Shown piece by piece: positions 22,332 through 28,229 of a DNA stretch of 64,000 bases. The translations under genes and the position numbers were made by a program. Within the stretch, counting starts at the first letter, position 1. Every line of letters begins with the position of its first letter. The DNA comes from Porphyromonas cangingivalis (GTDB lineage: Bacteria; Bacteroidota; Bacteroidia; Bacteroidales; Porphyromonadaceae): NCBI RefSeq assembly GCF_900638305.1, contig NZ_LR134506.1:1364001-1428000 (forward strand). The letters run 5' to 3'. A model generated the notes under the pieces. That model saw nothing but the letters and a program-made list of their open reading frames with translations, was not told the origin of the DNA and did not search any database.

Positions 22332-22419
22332 AAAGTCGTTAAAATCGATAATGAAAGTCGTTAGACTCGATGACAAAAGTCGTTAAACTTGATGATGAAG
22401 GTCGTTAAAGACGAATTTT
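22332..22419. repeat. 22-bp direct repeat array, family A (4 units)
   Basis: Contiguous units start at 22332, 22354, 22376 and 22398. All share AA(A/G)GTCGTTA followed by a diverging second half. Unit 2 keeps AGTC-GTTA-GACT. The 930-bp divergent gap 21910-22839 otherwise holds AT-rich sequence, a promoter element at 22736 and no convincing gene. Confidence 0.75.
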
Positions 22420-22735: not shown

Positions 22736-22743
22736 TAAATTTG
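22736..22743 (+). promoter_or_regulatory. -7 element of the collagen-like/OmpA locus
   Basis: TAAATTTG matches TAnnTTTG. Transcription would begin near 22750, about 90 nt before the ATG at 22840. The -33 position has no TTTG. Confidence 0.5.
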
Positions 22744-22839: not shown

Positions 22840-24858
22840 ATGAAAATGAAAAGCGTATTGTATTGGGTGACACTGTGCCTCATCGCAGTGTCTTGTACCA
22901 ATCTTCAGGTGATCACACCTAAAGGACAAGAGGGAGAAAAAGGGGACACGGGCATGAGTTCGTACGATCTCTGGTTAACTTTATTGGACAAAGGTCAGTA
23001 CCCCGACTGGAAAGGAGGAAGAGGAGAGGCTGACTTTCTGATTTTCCTTTCAGGCAAGGATGGTAAGAACGGCATGACTGCTTACGAAGAGTGGAAAAAG
23101 ATGATCGCCACAAACACTGTCGAAGATCCTCACAATCCTGGAGTCATCTGGACTTCTTCAAAAAACACGGAGAGGGATTTTTTCTGGTTCCTCACCGGGG
23201 CTAAAGGAGACAAAGGCGAAAAGGGCGACACCGGAGCCAAGGGTGAAAAGGGTGATAAAGGTGATAAAGGTGATAAAGGCGATAAAGGTGATAAAGGTGA
23301 CACCGGAGCCAAGGGTGATAAAGGAGATAAAGGCGAAAAGGGCGACAAAGGTGAGCCCGGCGACAATGGCAACGCAGGAAATGCGGGCAATCCCGGAGAA
23401 AAGGGAGATAAGGGTCAACCGGGACTTGATGCCTATACTATTTGGGTAAATGAAGCCAAGAAGGGGACTCTCAAAAATCCTCATCCGGATATGCCAGGAT
23501 ATGAAGGTGAGTTTTGGCCTGTTGACAAGACGTCTTTGGATGATTTTTGGGTCTATCTAAGAGGTCAAAATGGCAAGAACACTAAGGAAATAATCGCAGA
23601 CTATAATCTTTCTTTCCATGCCACTCAGATCAAAGATGGTGGGGCTGGCTACAATGTGCATACTGGTGATGCAGTATTGCGTATTACAGACCGTGATACA
23701 AAGCCCGTACCTGCAGGTACTCCTATCATCTTTGGCACAGAATTCGGTCTCCCAATGCAAAAGCAATATACTGTGAGGGCTGATGGTACCATCACTATAC
23801 CCCGTGCAGATCTTCTTCCTAATGGTACTGCTATTGATAAGCGTGTGGCTCGAGCAAAGTTGACTATCAATGGCAAGGAAGAACAGACAAATATCTTTGT
23901 ATTTCCAACTCAGGTCAAGTTTAAGGATGGAGGTTGGAATATTAGAAACGATTGGGCACCAGGTCTTGTCCGTGCGACAACAGGGGCTACATACATCTTT
24001 GACCCTGCTGGTTCATTAGCGGTTGTAGAGCTCGATCACCGTATTAAGGAACTCTCTTACAATGATGTTTATAAGGAGTGGTTCGGAGCTCAAGGTGGAG
24101 ATAAAAAGATCATCTTTGAAATCACAGACATCAATGGTACCGTACTCAATAGTGCTACTGATGCTCGTGTTAATGATGAATGGTATGCGCGTAGTGAAGG
24201 GGATCCTGTAGCTCGTCGTCCATTATACTTTAAAACTCCCACAGATACCCACAAGTGGGGGCATAACTTTGCTCATGATGCAGGGCGTGTTTTTAGCAAT
24301 GAGTCTTACTACGTACGTACAAAGGCTGTGCCTAAGTACTTTGGCATTCCTGGAGATATTCAGAGCCCGATCGTCGAGATCCCACCAATGCCACGTGTCC
24401 CATTGCTTAAGAATATTAAACTTTCTGGAGGTAAGGCTCTAGGTGAATTTGAGGTTCTTGATCCTATGTACATGGATAAGATTTACACAGGCTATAAGGA
24501 GTCTCCGACAAACCCAAAGCTTTGGATTCCGGCTTATACTTCATTCAATAATATGGTGCTCAATATTCTGGTGACGAAGGTGAACACAGCTTATACCGGT
24601 GCGGCCAAGGTGGGAGAGTATGGTTTTGACTTCCCCATCACCTCTACAGCTCAAGACCTAGTGGGTTGTAGGGTCTATTTGTCAAGTCCATCTGGATTTA
24701 CAGCTGTTACGCCAACTAGTGAAGCTATTCCTTTGAACCAACAGCCTCACTTCAGACCTGTACTTCTCGGCACTATAGAGTTGGTTGATAATGAGCCACG
24801 CATCAAGTACTCTACCGACCTTGGTATGACTGAAACACATGTGCCTCTCAAGATGTAA
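22840..24858 (+). CDS. Collagen-like outer-membrane lipoprotein 1
   Basis: 672 residues. Signal peptide with lipobox AVSC (C19). Three copies of a short YxxW module (about 41-71, 80-119 and 198-242; each starts S/TxYxxW and ends in an FxxxLxG-like motif) surround an uninterrupted Gly-X-Y stretch of 25 triplets (120-194), mostly GDK, GEK and GAK. The last 430 residues are beta-rich with no recognised domain. Charged GDK/GEK triplets can form a hydroxyproline-free triple helix, so a trimeric surface stalk with a distal C-terminal domain is likely. It is first of a cassette with an OmpA-type protein (51 bp gap) and a second collagen-like lipoprotein. The C-terminal part uses more T-ending codons than its neighbours. 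Confidence 0.85.
   Translation: MKMKSVLYWVTLCLIAVSCTNLQVITPKGQEGEKGDTGMSSYDLWLTLLDKGQYPDWKGGRGEADFLIFLSGKDGKNGMTAYEEWKKMIATNTVEDPHNPGVIWTSSKNTERDFFWFLTGAKGDKGEKGDTGAKGEKGDKGDKGDKGDKGDKGDTGAKGDKGDKGEKGDKGEPGDNGNAGNAGNPGEKGDKGQPGLDAYTIWVNEAKKGTLKNPHPDMPGYEGEFWPVDKTSLDDFWVYLRGQNGKNTKEIIADYNLSFHATQIKDGGAGYNVHTGDAVLRITDRDTKPVPAGTPIIFGTEFGLPMQKQYTVRADGTITIPRADLLPNGTAIDKRVARAKLTINGKEEQTNIFVFPTQVKFKDGGWNIRNDWAPGLVRATTGATYIFDPAGSLAVVELDHRIKELSYNDVYKEWFGAQGGDKKIIFEITDINGTVLNSATDARVNDEWYARSEGDPVARRPLYFKTPTDTHKWGHNFAHDAGRVFSNESYYVRTKAVPKYFGIPGDIQSPIVEIPPMPRVPLLKNIKLSGGKALGEFEVLDPMYMDKIYTGYKESPTNPKLWIPAYTSFNNMVLNILVTKVNTAYTGAAKVGEYGFDFPITSTAQDLVGCRVYLSSPSGFTAVTPTSEAIPLNQQPHFRPVLLGTIELVDNEPRIKYSTDLGMTETHVPLKM
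23251..23298 (+). repeat. 9-bp tandem repeat inside the collagen-like gene
   Basis: GGTGATAAA (or GGCGATAAA) is repeated about five times in tandem, encoding Gly-Asp-Lys. Slippage would change the collagen stalk by whole triplets without breaking the frame. Confidence 0.8.
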
Positions 24859-24909
24859 GTATAGAAGGCGATTGGTGTAATTTCAAAAAATAAAGAACGA
24901 ATAAAGACT

Positions 24910-26070
24910 ATGAATATAAATATAAAAAAGATGTTATGTAGTGTAGCCTTAATGGGGGCTTCTATTATTTCAGTGTCAGCTCAAGACATCACCATTGCCG
25001 AGGACACTCATAACAATAAAAGAGCTTGGGAGATAGGTCTGGGAGGATCAGTCTTTCACATGCCTCGCGTGGGGCTCAAGAGTGTGATGACTGACAGCAA
25101 AGGACATCTCATAGATATCAGCAAGAGAGACTTGGTCTTCGGAGGACAGATATATGTCGCTCGTGAGCTATCCGATCACTTTGCCTTGGATCTTCAAGGT
25201 ACATTCGGTTATGCCAAAGACCCAGTACGTACAGTATTGAAAGACCATTATATAGGTCTTGGGACACTCGGGCTACAGTGGAGACTGGGAGGCTATTTTG
25301 GATCTAAGATCATTGACCCATTCGTCCGCATAGGAGCGGGATATATGTACAAGAACTTCCGCATCAACTATATGGATGTCCTTGACGGCACTTCGCTAAA
25401 CAATACGACTGAATCCGGCATGGTGGACAACGACCGTACTCATCTCCTACCCATCACGGCGGGACTTGGCCTCAATATGTGGCTCAATGATCGTTTCGGT
25501 ATCGGTATGCAAGCAGACTATATCCATCTACCCTACAAAGGGATCGCTGATCCTCTTCAGGGCTCGCTCCGTCTCATGTGGCGCATCGGAGGAAAGTCAA
25601 AGAAGACCTTCGTGAAAGTTCCGGTCGAAAAGATTGTCGAACGCGAGGTGATCAGAGAGGTCGAGAAGATCGTATCTCAACCATCTACTGAGACCAAAAC
25701 CATGTACAAGCTCTTTTCAGGCATCTACTTTGAGTTTGCGAGTGCAGACTTCACGACAGACACTTATAGACTCCTTGATGAGATCGCAGAGACACTCAAG
25801 AGCACTCCTTCATCAAGATTGTGTATCATCGGTTGCACAGATGCCATAGGCACTGCCGAGTATAACAAAAAGCTCTCCGAACGAAGAGCCAAGGCGGTGG
25901 TCGATGCCCTCATTGAGAGAGGAGTATCCTCTCAAATGCTCAAGTGGCGTGGTGTCGGCAGTGAGATCGCACATGCCCCTAAGGCAGAGTCGGATGGTGT
26001 ACGTAGAGGGGACCGTAAGGTAATCGTCGAAGTAATCGAAAATGAGGCTTATTGGGAAAGCCTGAAATAA
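24910..26070 (+). CDS. OmpA-family outer-membrane protein
   Basis: 386 residues. Signal peptide ends at VSAQ (about 25). Residues 30-230 form a small beta-barrel (WEIGLGGSVF, LQGTFGYA, PFVRIGAGYMY, GIGMQADYIHL). A charged heptad-like linker follows (VEKIVEREVIREVEKIV, about 240-260), then a C-terminal peptidoglycan-binding domain (IYFEFASADFTTDTYRLLDE; GCTDAIGTAEYNKKLSERRA, with the conserved Asp and Arg). It anchors the outer membrane to the cell wall. The linker suggests oligomerisation, as in the Porphyromonas OmpA heterotrimer. Sitting between two collagen-like lipoproteins, it may be their membrane anchor or partner; this is inference. Confidence 0.88.
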   Translation: MNINIKKMLCSVALMGASIISVSAQDITIAEDTHNNKRAWEIGLGGSVFHMPRVGLKSVMTDSKGHLIDISKRDLVFGGQIYVARELSDHFALDLQGTFGYAKDPVRTVLKDHYIGLGTLGLQWRLGGYFGSKIIDPFVRIGAGYMYKNFRINYMDVLDGTSLNNTTESGMVDNDRTHLLPITAGLGLNMWLNDRFGIGMQADYIHLPYKGIADPLQGSLRLMWRIGGKSKKTFVKVPVEKIVEREVIREVEKIVSQPSTETKTMYKLFSGIYFEFASADFTTDTYRLLDEIAETLKSTPSSRLCIIGCTDAIGTAEYNKKLSERRAKAVVDALIERGVSSQMLKWRGVGSEIAHAPKAESDGVRRGDRKVIVEVIENEAYWESLK

Positions 26071-26080
26071 TGGGCACGGT

Positions 26081-26125
26081 GGAGGGCTAACATTTCATGG
26101 TGCATTGACATCATGAAAGCCTCCC
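26081..26125 (+). terminator. Hairpin between the OmpA-family and second collagen-like genes
   Basis: GAGGGCT...TTTCATG pairs imperfectly with CATGAAAGCCTCC and has no T tail, so it may attenuate or stabilise the transcript rather than end it. Confidence 0.35.
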
Positions 26126-26167
26126 TGCAACCAATAACTTCGTCATAAATTAAATCAGTATCGAACG

Positions 26168-28015
26168 ATGACAAAACGTTTATTCACATACACAATCATA
26201 GCACTGCTCTTGGTCTCTTGTACGGACTTCAAGGTTCTGGCTCCGTTGGGACCACGAGGTGACAAAGGCCAGACGGGCACCAGTGCTTATCAAGAGTGGC
26301 TCTCACTCTTGGACAGAGGACTTTATCCGGACTGGAAGGGCGGTCGAAGCGAAGCAGACTACATGATATTCTTATCCGGAAAAGATGGAAAAGACGGTAT
26401 CAGTGCCTACGAAAAGTGGAAAGCTATGATCGCTGCAGGTGATGTGCGAGATCCACATGCTCCGGACAGGCTATGGTCACCTGACAAAAACACTCTCAGA
26501 GACTTCTTTTGGTTTCTCTCCGGGTCGAAAGGCTCCAAGGGTGACAAAGGAGACAAAGGCGATCAGGGACAAAAAGGAGACCAAGGAGACAAGGGCTCAC
26601 AGGGAGATAAAGGAGATAAAGGAGAACACGGAGACAAAGGTCAGACCGGTGATCGAGGCGACAAAGGCGATCGAGGCGACAAGGGCGAACCCGGTCAAGG
26701 AGGAGGCTCAGGCTCTGACGGCCCAAAAGGACCTGAAGGGGATCCGGGAGACAATGGTCTTACAGCTTATGACATTTGGAAAAAAGAGGCAGAAAAAGGG
26801 ACCTTGCCCAACCCTCATCCAAACCTTCCCGGATATGAAGGAGAGTTCTGGCCCAAGGATAAGGTATCCCAAGAGGACTTTAGGGTATACCTCAATGGGA
26901 TAGATGCAGACAAGTTGCCACAAAAAACTTCGATCAGTGTCTCAGGTACAAATACGACAACGGACAAAAAACTGAATCCGGGCTCTATGTTCATCTCTGA
27001 GGAAAGAGCAGACTCAGCGATCATCAAAATCATCTCTCCGGCAGGTGCTCCCGTGATAAGCATAGAGAGTGCCGAAAATCTACCGGGAGGGTACATCATC
27101 GTCCCTCTCGGAGAGAGCCAAGAGGATGGTGTCAGTGTGCATACCTTCAAACTAAAAACAGCTCACAACATAGGCCCTGACAGGGACTTCAGACTTGTTG
27201 TGAACAATGTCTTCGAAGACAATAATCCGCATCTGATCACTGTCAAGCAGAAGGGTTATTTCACTCCGATGGAATACATGTCTGAATACAACATGAACAA
27301 AACAGGAACGGGCTTTGCGACGAACCATGCCAATGATCAAAGCGGTCTCTTCCCACAAAATCAAGCCATCGAGACATGGGGCTGGAAAGCAAATTTCGCG
27401 ATAGGTGGCACACGCTATTACCTCCCGGACATACGTACTTGGAGAAGTGTCATGCCGGGAGAGGTCTTGCACTACTATAATGGACACGTGCTGACGATGG
27501 ATAATGTAAGCGAAGAAATCAGACTGAATACCCATCAGATCAAAGATGTCTTCACCTCAGACTATAGAGGAAGCGGAAATCATATCATATACGGACTCCG
27601 TCTCAAGAGCGCAGATAATCGACTTAGGACTGCATTCAAATACGAATACATCGACAATCCTGAGGGCGGGACAGGGGAATTTGTCAAAGCCCTCAAGATT
27701 ACTTCTCGCTACTTGGGGCCAGATGTCCCCGGCAGTCCCATCACGGTTGATCAGGTGAAGGACGAATCCTTCTGGAGCTCCAATAATCAGAATGATGTGG
27801 TAAGGATACTACCGGCAAGTGGTGCGTTGGATGCGCAAGGGACACCGATCCCCGGCAAGTTTGGCGAAAGTGGTTACTACTGGGCAAGCGAAACAAGTGC
27901 AGCTAAAGCCCTGGGGCTAAGGATGCTATTCCATCGCTTTGCGTTGGATGCTGACAGACGAATAGCCAACCCATCGGGTAACCACGAAGCCGTCCGACTC
28001 TTCTTCAAGAGGTAA
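26168..28015 (+). CDS. Collagen-like outer-membrane lipoprotein 2
   Basis: 615 residues, paralogous to the first in its N-terminal 245: lipobox LVSC (C18), YxxW modules at about 39-71, 79-118 and 199-244, and 26 Gly-X-Y triplets at 119-196 (GDK, GDQ, GDR; one GGS). The C-terminal 370 residues are unrelated to copy 1. They include a strand-rich region and an ending (ESGYYWASETSAAKALGLRM ... NHEAVRLFF) resembling the FISUMP/DUF1566-like fold at the tips of Bacteroidetes surface proteins. So the two stalks carry different heads. It is last of the cassette and is followed by two strong hairpins. Confidence 0.85.
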   Translation: MTKRLFTYTIIALLLVSCTDFKVLAPLGPRGDKGQTGTSAYQEWLSLLDRGLYPDWKGGRSEADYMIFLSGKDGKDGISAYEKWKAMIAAGDVRDPHAPDRLWSPDKNTLRDFFWFLSGSKGSKGDKGDKGDQGQKGDQGDKGSQGDKGDKGEHGDKGQTGDRGDKGDRGDKGEPGQGGGSGSDGPKGPEGDPGDNGLTAYDIWKKEAEKGTLPNPHPNLPGYEGEFWPKDKVSQEDFRVYLNGIDADKLPQKTSISVSGTNTTTDKKLNPGSMFISEERADSAIIKIISPAGAPVISIESAENLPGGYIIVPLGESQEDGVSVHTFKLKTAHNIGPDRDFRLVVNNVFEDNNPHLITVKQKGYFTPMEYMSEYNMNKTGTGFATNHANDQSGLFPQNQAIETWGWKANFAIGGTRYYLPDIRTWRSVMPGEVLHYYNGHVLTMDNVSEEIRLNTHQIKDVFTSDYRGSGNHIIYGLRLKSADNRLRTAFKYEYIDNPEGGTGEFVKALKITSRYLGPDVPGSPITVDQVKDESFWSSNNQNDVVRILPASGALDAQGTPIPGKFGESGYYWASETSAAKALGLRMLFHRFALDADRRIANPSGNHEAVRLFFKR

Positions 28016-28057: not shown

Positions 28058-28099
28058 ATTCTTTTGTGGGACAGAACATATTCTGTCCCACAAAAGAAT
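28058..28099. terminator. Near-perfect 19-bp-arm hairpin containing a GACAGAA/TTCTGTC palindrome
   Basis: ATTCTTTTGTGGGACAGAA is followed by a short loop and its complement. It probably terminates the collagen-like cassette. Its centre equals one unit of the family B 22-bp repeat. Confidence 0.6.
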
Positions 28100-28187: not shown

Positions 28188-28229
28188 AGAATGTGGTGTC
28201 AAAACTAATCGTTTTGACACCACATTTCT
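28188..28229. terminator. Second long hairpin downstream of the collagen-like cassette
   Basis: AGAATGTGGTGTCAAAAC pairs with GTTTTGACACCACATTTCT around a 5-nt loop. It lies between convergent genes. The remaining sequence to 28644 shows further short inverted repeats (GAGCCGG/CCGGCTC near 28360 and 28415) but no clear gene. Confidence 0.6.

Follow-up and report, generated by a model that had tools for sequence, protein, structure and literature searches.

Analysis of a 64-kb window of the Porphyromonas cangingivalis genome (the whole stretch of DNA considered here, bases 1364001-1428000 of the single-contig genome of 2.40 Mb; positions are counted within the window unless genome positions are named) identified a cassette of three open reading frames (ORFs) on the same strand, in which two stalk lipoproteins, L1 and L2, are encoded on either side of an OmpA-family protein. 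Stalk lipoproteins of the same family are encoded directly upstream of close homologs of this OmpA protein in further Bacteroidales genomes. As an overall explanation, with a probability of roughly 0.5, the cassette may be an operon for stalks on the cell surface that have a peptidoglycan-binding barrel protein as their dedicated partner, and it is probably a surface adhesin unit.

Organization of the Cassette

The gap between L1 and the OmpA gene is 51 bp and that between the OmpA gene and L2 is 97 bp. The signal peptides of both lipoproteins end in lipobox-like cysteines, at residue 19 in L1 (IAVSC) and residue 18 in L2 (LLVSC). The genes and their parts are listed below, with the evidence for each in brackets.

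22840..24858, plus strand: L1, stalk lipoprotein of 672 residues, Cys19 after a lipobox (ORF list, profile scan, N-terminus inspection)
22960..23055, plus strand: L1 module A, residues 41-72, predicted helix-loop-helix (pattern, AlphaFold model)
23080..23199, plus strand: L1 module B, residues 81-120 (pattern, AlphaFold model)
23197..23430, plus strand: L1 Gly-X-Y tract of 26 triplets, residues 120-197 (PF01391; run count; proportions of synonymous and nonsynonymous differences, pS and pN)
23431..23565, plus strand: L1 module C, residues 198-242 (pattern, AlphaFold model)
23566..24855, plus strand: L1 head, a diverged member of the family head (head comparison)
24910..26070, plus strand: OmpA-family partner of 386 residues with signal peptide, putative barrel (about residues 30-230), charged linker and OmpA_C domain (profile scans, alignment)
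25726..25968, plus strand: OmpA_C domain (PF00691) with D311 and R326 (profile scan, alignment of 18 partners)
26168..28015, plus strand: L2, stalk lipoprotein of 615 residues, Cys18 after a lipobox (ORF list, profile scan, N-terminus inspection)
26285..26380, plus strand: L2 module A, residues 40-71 (pattern, AlphaFold model)
26405..26524, plus strand: L2 module B, residues 80-118, reaching into the first glycine (pattern, AlphaFold model)
26522..26764, plus strand: L2 Gly-X-Y tract of 27 triplets, residues 119-199 (PF01391, run count, pS and pN)
26765..26899, plus strand: L2 module C, residues 200-244 (pattern, AlphaFold model)
27248..28012, plus strand: L2 head, FISUMP-like domain common to many surface proteins of relatives (genome searches, profile scans)

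A preliminary description of this DNA had reported two same-strand lipoproteins with lipoboxes around an OmpA gene at short distances, Gly-X-Y runs of 25 and 26 triplets, paralogous N-termini of about 240 residues and unrelated C-terminal heads. The arrangement and the lipoboxes were confirmed, and its triplet counts were right within one: the longest in-phase runs are 26 triplets in L1 and 27 in L2, the final triplets (GLD and GLT, respectively) extending into the following module. The stalks are 61% identical over 242 residues, in agreement with paralogy, and the two heads likewise gave no significant match to each other, the other local matches listed between the two proteins either crossing the collagen tract or scoring at most 20 bits.

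Pairing of Stalk Lipoproteins and OmpA-Family Proteins

All 26 close homologs of the OmpA protein in the fetched loci have a stalk lipoprotein directly upstream, at a distance of -11 to +60 bp, where a partner is an OmpA hit of more than 150 bits and rows shorter than 75 residues are dropped (an 84-bit hit at L044 is listed and uncounted, and the OmpA fragments L134 and L135 stand outside the pairing table). The pairs were found in ten Bacteroidales genomes plus one scaffold. G000, G001, and G009 have five such loci each, G008, G095, and G353 have two each, and a single one is present in G016, in G141, in G404, in a metagenome-assembled genome (MAG) of Dysgonomonas, the nearest named relative found, where the pair lies on a contig, and in a human-gut scaffold filed as phage. 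A second stalk lipoprotein is encoded downstream of the OmpA gene at five of the loci, of which G000 has two and G001, G008, and G009 have one each. Counted by lipoproteins, 26 of 41 rows lie upstream of a close OmpA and five downstream of one, seven are cut by contig ends and three are without one; these three are the weak hits L175, L176, and L177, the last of which is followed at 38 bp by a distant OmpA (41 bits). The conserved neighborhood in relatives, the absence of which the preliminary description had named beforehand as a refutation, is present, in the form of 26 of 26 pairs and five triads.

Many loci of the genus were fetched via their OmpA hit. Loci detected through the lipoprotein alone give a fairer count, which comprises all seven lipoproteins of this genome and six strong hits in four other families, all of them paired. 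A search with the first 121 residues of L2 returned the seven lipoproteins of this genome, which are spread over five loci, and gave matches in five of 61 relatives, this genome included; close homologs of the OmpA protein (best E 1e-104 or better) are present in four of 12 genus members.

As a control, 52 other collagen-like ORFs with at least 12 triplets were considered, a non-random set from 39 regions (the best of a longer listing) and 13 earlier loci, with about 15 of the 52 cut by a contig end. Three of these ORFs have an OmpA-domain neighbor; only nine of the 52 were recognized as lipoproteins, two of which have a distant OmpA neighbor and belong to the three. The comparison of 26/26 with 3/52 indicates that the OmpA link follows the stalk family and not collagen, and collagen as the cause of the link is therefore not supported. 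A looser habit of combining lipoproteins and OmpA proteins across the order is possible.

The coiled-coil/collagen lipoproteins L042, L044, and L177 have distant OmpA-domain neighbors of 40-84 bits, possibly a looser kind of pairing. On the scaffold filed as phage (L178; MT837658.1, 1-6461; unverified), which looks like Bacteroidales DNA, the stalk lipoprotein and its OmpA are accompanied by a further OmpA-type protein and an ORF resembling a transporter.

Stalk Modules, Spacers and the Collagen Tract

Outside the collagen tract, the stalks of L1 and L2 are made up of a repeated unit, AYxxW...W...DFxxxLxG, which occurs three times in each protein, in the order of a short module A, a module B with DPH, the spacer, and a module C directly before the head. 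By pattern search, 90 distinct units were cut from the family lipoproteins, the largest number in a single protein being nine, in L038. The spacers are Gly-X-Y tracts, a GNWWIG..DTG repeat or further modules, and among the 24 members that have both ends intact and had their runs counted, four (L1, L2, L037, and L043) contain a Gly-X-Y run of more than ten triplets. It is the AYxxW module, not collagen, that defines the stalk family, with collagen as one exchangeable spacer; the preliminary description had placed collagen at the center of the system, which was not borne out, given the rarity of long runs among the members and of OmpA neighbors in the control set.

No relatives of the module were detected when Pfam and NCBIfam were scanned or when PDB sequences were searched with profiles. 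It is a predicted helical hairpin, all three modules being drawn as two short helices in the AlphaFold monomer models of both proteins, with ten-residue means of the predicted local distance difference test (pLDDT) of up to 85 (module C). A fold search with the L1 model in a viral library only returned nothing at E <= 1e-3, which, with a poor model, is uninformative. No plasmid relatives were found, and the viral-contig scans yielded no relative. Phage collagen-like tail fibers (PHROGs 13286, 5073, and others) match the stalk profiles only when Gly-X-Y is included, and three module-only pieces without flanking Gly-X-Y had no PHROG match; tblastn searches detected no phage other than one bacterial-looking scaffold, and common descent of the module with phage fibers is no more than possible. 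AYxxW-like units also occur in the FNYQAVVRN-type proteins of G408 (L175, 3410-6631, and L176, 3681-7691), which are not lipoproteins and have no OmpA neighbor.

Regarding the collagen tract, PF01391 matches L1 with 54.5 bits and L2 with 46.5 bits, above the cut-off of 27.2, and it is the only Pfam family detected in the two proteins at E <= 1. Between the L1 and L2 tracts pS is 0.78, which is saturated, and pN is 0.29, which argues that the Gly-X-Y repeat is maintained for its protein sequence and is no accident of the DNA. Because the synonymous sites are saturated, the idea that L1 and L2 recently arose by duplication or underwent gene conversion is rejected. The DNA of the tract carries 9- and 27-bp tandem repeats, so that its length could drift.

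The Gly-X-Y tract might also be a flexible charged spacer which forms no triple helix, the lipoproteins then being monomeric rods or strings of hairpins; the interchangeability of spacers across the family, the small number of prolines at X or Y (three in the L1 tract, four in that of L2) and a GQGGGS stretch in the L2 tract would agree with this. However, glycine stays in phase through all 26 triplets of L1 and all 27 of L2 although synonymous change is saturated, and the content of KGD/KGE pairs, which stabilize the triple helix, is high (16 in L1 and eight in L2), so that a flexible spacer is considered decidedly doubtful. In the preferred explanation as a three-chain rod, the helical hairpins flanking the tract would set the register of the chains, and the modular shaft would most likely trimerize and keep the C-terminal head distant from the cell.

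Head Domains

A single group takes in 23 of the 29 head pieces compared. The L1 head matches the Dysgonomonas head with a BLAST E-value of 2.6e-6 (in the small set of 29 pieces) and a profile of 22 heads with 24.9 bits in two collinear stretches (with an E-value for two sequences only); it is a diverged family head. The L2-type head was found in 23 genomes out of 100, counting the present one, on proteins with varied N-termini, among them DUF4988 stalks and immunoglobulin-like domains. Four relatives of the L2 head were scanned, of which three match TIGR02145 (FISUMP), three PF09603 and two Lcl_C (PF07603), all below cut-off; L2 itself matches none of these three models, and no credible solved relative was found with the L2 head profile or for the stalk module. 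Since the L2 head is unlike the family head and common on other proteins, L2 is a family stalk with an exchanged head, and this FISUMP-like domain is probably a ligand-binding domain. In one relative, G031, the L2-type head is strongly multiplied: it is matched 16 times, on several contigs, and many of the proteins concerned are about 1000 residues long.

Heads are the least conserved part in five of five ortholog comparisons, with 62-78% identity versus 78-92% for the whole OmpA protein; stalk identity is 80-89% in the three of five comparisons that included it. Such heads would vary as expected of surface ligand binders. A periplasmic orientation, with the lipoproteins and OmpA together acting as spacers between outer membrane and wall, would suit the lack of a canonical surface-export signal in L1 and a partner that is peptidoglycan-binding by type, but it is very improbable in view of the wide variation in stalk length (463-1012 residues in complete members), the fastest divergence being in the heads, and the occurrence of the L2 head on many different predicted surface proteins.

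The OmpA Partner and the Proposed Mechanism

The OmpA_C domain (PF00691) of the partner scores 65.5 bits against a cut-off of 27.2, and D311 and R326 are conserved without exception in the 18 partners aligned; by this domain and its peptidoglycan-type Asp and Arg, the protein belongs to the OmpA family. We take the two residues to be equivalent to the peptidoglycan-binding pair of E. coli OmpA. In the proposed mechanism, L1 and L2 would be lipidated at the N-terminal cysteine and retained in the outer membrane, where the OmpA barrel would lie beside the stalk base, and the periplasmic domain would bind peptidoglycan and thereby link the stalk to the wall. One OmpA protein would serve two stalks, L1 with the family-type head and L2 with the exchanged FISUMP-like head.

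Evolutionary distances were compared in 20 complete pairs, a set in which only four genomes hold more than one pair. The correlation was strongest between barrel and membrane-proximal stalk (r 0.45, reached by 6 of 2000 free shuffles and 0 of 5000 within-genome shuffles), followed by barrel and head (r 0.38; 41 of 2000 and 3 of 5000) and by OmpA_C and stalk (r 0.28; 62 of 2000 and 35 of 5000). Contact between barrel and stalk would account for this ranking. Also in favor of the explanation, PMC12578637 terms complexes of barrels and surface lipoproteins a hallmark of the phylum.

Several results weigh against this explanation. Co-duplication of the gene pair alone could yield the correlation of distances. 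Of the barrel, linker and peptidoglycan-binding domain seen in the preliminary description, the last is well matched, but the N-terminal barrel has only a weak match to OMP_b-brl (19.3 bits, below the cut-off of 28.7). The AlphaFold monomer models are poor overall, with mean pLDDT of 34.9 for L1 and 33.9 for L2, and the Gly-X-Y tract is below 50. The sole head for which the ratio of nonsynonymous to synonymous substitution rates (dN/dS) was computable has a value of 0.137, indicating purifying selection. The second lipoprotein starts 66-208 bp after the OmpA gene, and a promoter of its own is possible. The family is rare: the stalk profile matches seven of 393 sampled genomes of the order at E <= 1e-6 (five with a pair, G146 with a distant OmpA adjacent, and G408 with none), and in a class-wide sample two of 395 genomes match, both of the same order. 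Finally, a rule for surface lipoproteins asks that the lipidated cysteine be followed by at least two acidic residues (figure legend of PMC12578637); at positions +2 to +8, L1 has none and L2 has one, and two or more are present in 13 of 32 family rows and lacking in 19 of 32, the cysteine of row L128 being mis-picked in this count.

The low number of acidic residues makes assisted export or display the main rival, in which the barrel of the OmpA partner aids the arrival of the lipoproteins at the surface and lasting binding is not needed; the lack of the usual surface-export residues in both L1 and L2 would then be explained. This is unlikely, since the conserved peptidoglycan-type residues suggest a lasting link to the wall, and many Bacteroidota lipoproteins are surface-exposed and reach the surface with no dedicated partner.

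Comparison With Described Systems

Legionella Lcl (NF046116) resembles L1 and L2 in having a membrane-associated N-terminus, a Gly-X-Y stalk and a C-terminal head, and is described in the consulted part of PMC11162425 as a trimer with a C-type-lectin-like, glycosaminoglycan-binding head. Relatives of the L2 head weakly match the Lcl_C and FISUMP models. However, NF046116 scores 50.9 bits with L1 and 45.9 bits with L2 against a cut-off of 500, and for the Lcl/Scl models together (NF046116, NF038329, and NF038330) the two proteins reach at most 59.9 bits against cut-offs of 325-500. In contrast to Lcl, L1 and L2 are lipoproteins, contain AYxxW modules and come with an OmpA partner; L2 matches no Lcl_C model, and the L2 head profile finds no Lcl structure. 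In Ata/AtaA with TpgA (NF047726), as in the cassette, the gene of a surface fiber is linked to that of an OmpA-domain partner; a portion of PMC6363060 describes the Ata fiber with its gene-linked partner TpgA. The OmpA protein of the window scores 44.1 bits with the TpgA model, against a cut-off of 350, and L1 and L2, unlike Ata, are lipoproteins with no autotransporter match in Pfam. By analogy, the cassette would work like Lcl and like Ata/TpgA, yet it is far below both curated cut-offs.

The DUF4988 stalk lipoproteins of Bacteroidales also combine a lipid-anchored stalk with an exchangeable head, some having Gly-X-Y tracts (L042) and some the L2-type head (L181 and L182), but PF16378 was not detected in L1 or L2. 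Other coiled-coil/collagen lipoproteins have no OmpA neighbor (L041, L045-L048, L214, and L219). The consulted portion of the BAM paper PMC12611786 contains no such stalk, and searches of open-licence papers, most subscription journals lying outside them, found no described system of such composition, in line with the preliminary description.

The pairing of a lipoprotein stalk with its own OmpA-type partner is apparently an undescribed family. At somewhat below even odds, the system as a whole may be a new one, in which a lipid-anchored trimeric stalk of a new hairpin module, with exchangeable spacers and heads, is docked on its own OmpA-type barrel tied to peptidoglycan, genomes having as many as five such loci and triads of two kinds placing two different heads on one wall anchor. 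If so, some of the many OmpA paralogues of these anaerobes would serve specifically to anchor or display long surface stalks, a role that would give them a testable function. Host-associated Bacteroidales would have a new adhesin-like class, a repeated protein module absent from Pfam would be defined, and stalk spacers and heads would be exchanged while the barrel partner stays.

Phylogeny of Pairs and Triads

L1 and L2 group as sisters (support 98/95) in the tree of stalks and are joined next by the Dysgonomonas stalk; the stalks of the other triads form a separate clade with L173 and L129. The order of triad genes thus arose twice or was homogenized long ago, and derivation of the window triad from the other triad type is not supported, the stalk clades being separate. 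In the OmpA tree, the window protein stands in no resolved order beside the Dysgonomonas, L173 and other-triad branches.

Transcription Signals and Flanking Sequences

Two features of the flanks bear on transcription.

22736..22743, plus strand: promoter-like box TAAATTTG upstream of L1 (motif search; weak)
28058..28099, no strand: perfect inverted repeat of 19 bp downstream of L2, with no second copy in the genome; may mark the end of the transcript (repeat search)

The motif TAnnTTTG, which we take to be the promoter box of Bacteroidetes, occurs once upstream of L1 and in neither gap, as the preliminary description had it with its lone promoter-like element; the value of that element is less certain, since the motif occurs 46 times in the window against 25 expected, and a lone box is weak evidence. 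The upstream box and the terminal inverted repeat would be compatible with one transcript, of which they are no proof. A second perfect inverted repeat (28190-28226, 16-bp arms and a 5-base loop) lies about 90 bp beyond the first, in the gap preceding a sensor-kinase-like gene on the opposite strand.

Near-identical Gly-X-Y ORFs of 1685 to 1836 residues occur in several copies (G010 C2, C4, and C5; L050), and the copy inspected follows a tape-measure-like ORF of 1209 residues, perhaps reflecting repeated prophages. Upstream of L1, a 22-bp tandem repeat, AAAGTCGTTAAACTCGATGATG, is present in 3.5 copies (window 22332-22409; genome 1386332-1386407). A 32-base pattern of this repeat has 57 matches in the genome with at most three mismatches, against none for the reversed control, and some copies of the 22-bp repeat lie near other stalk loci (genome 2091327-2091402 and 1318080).

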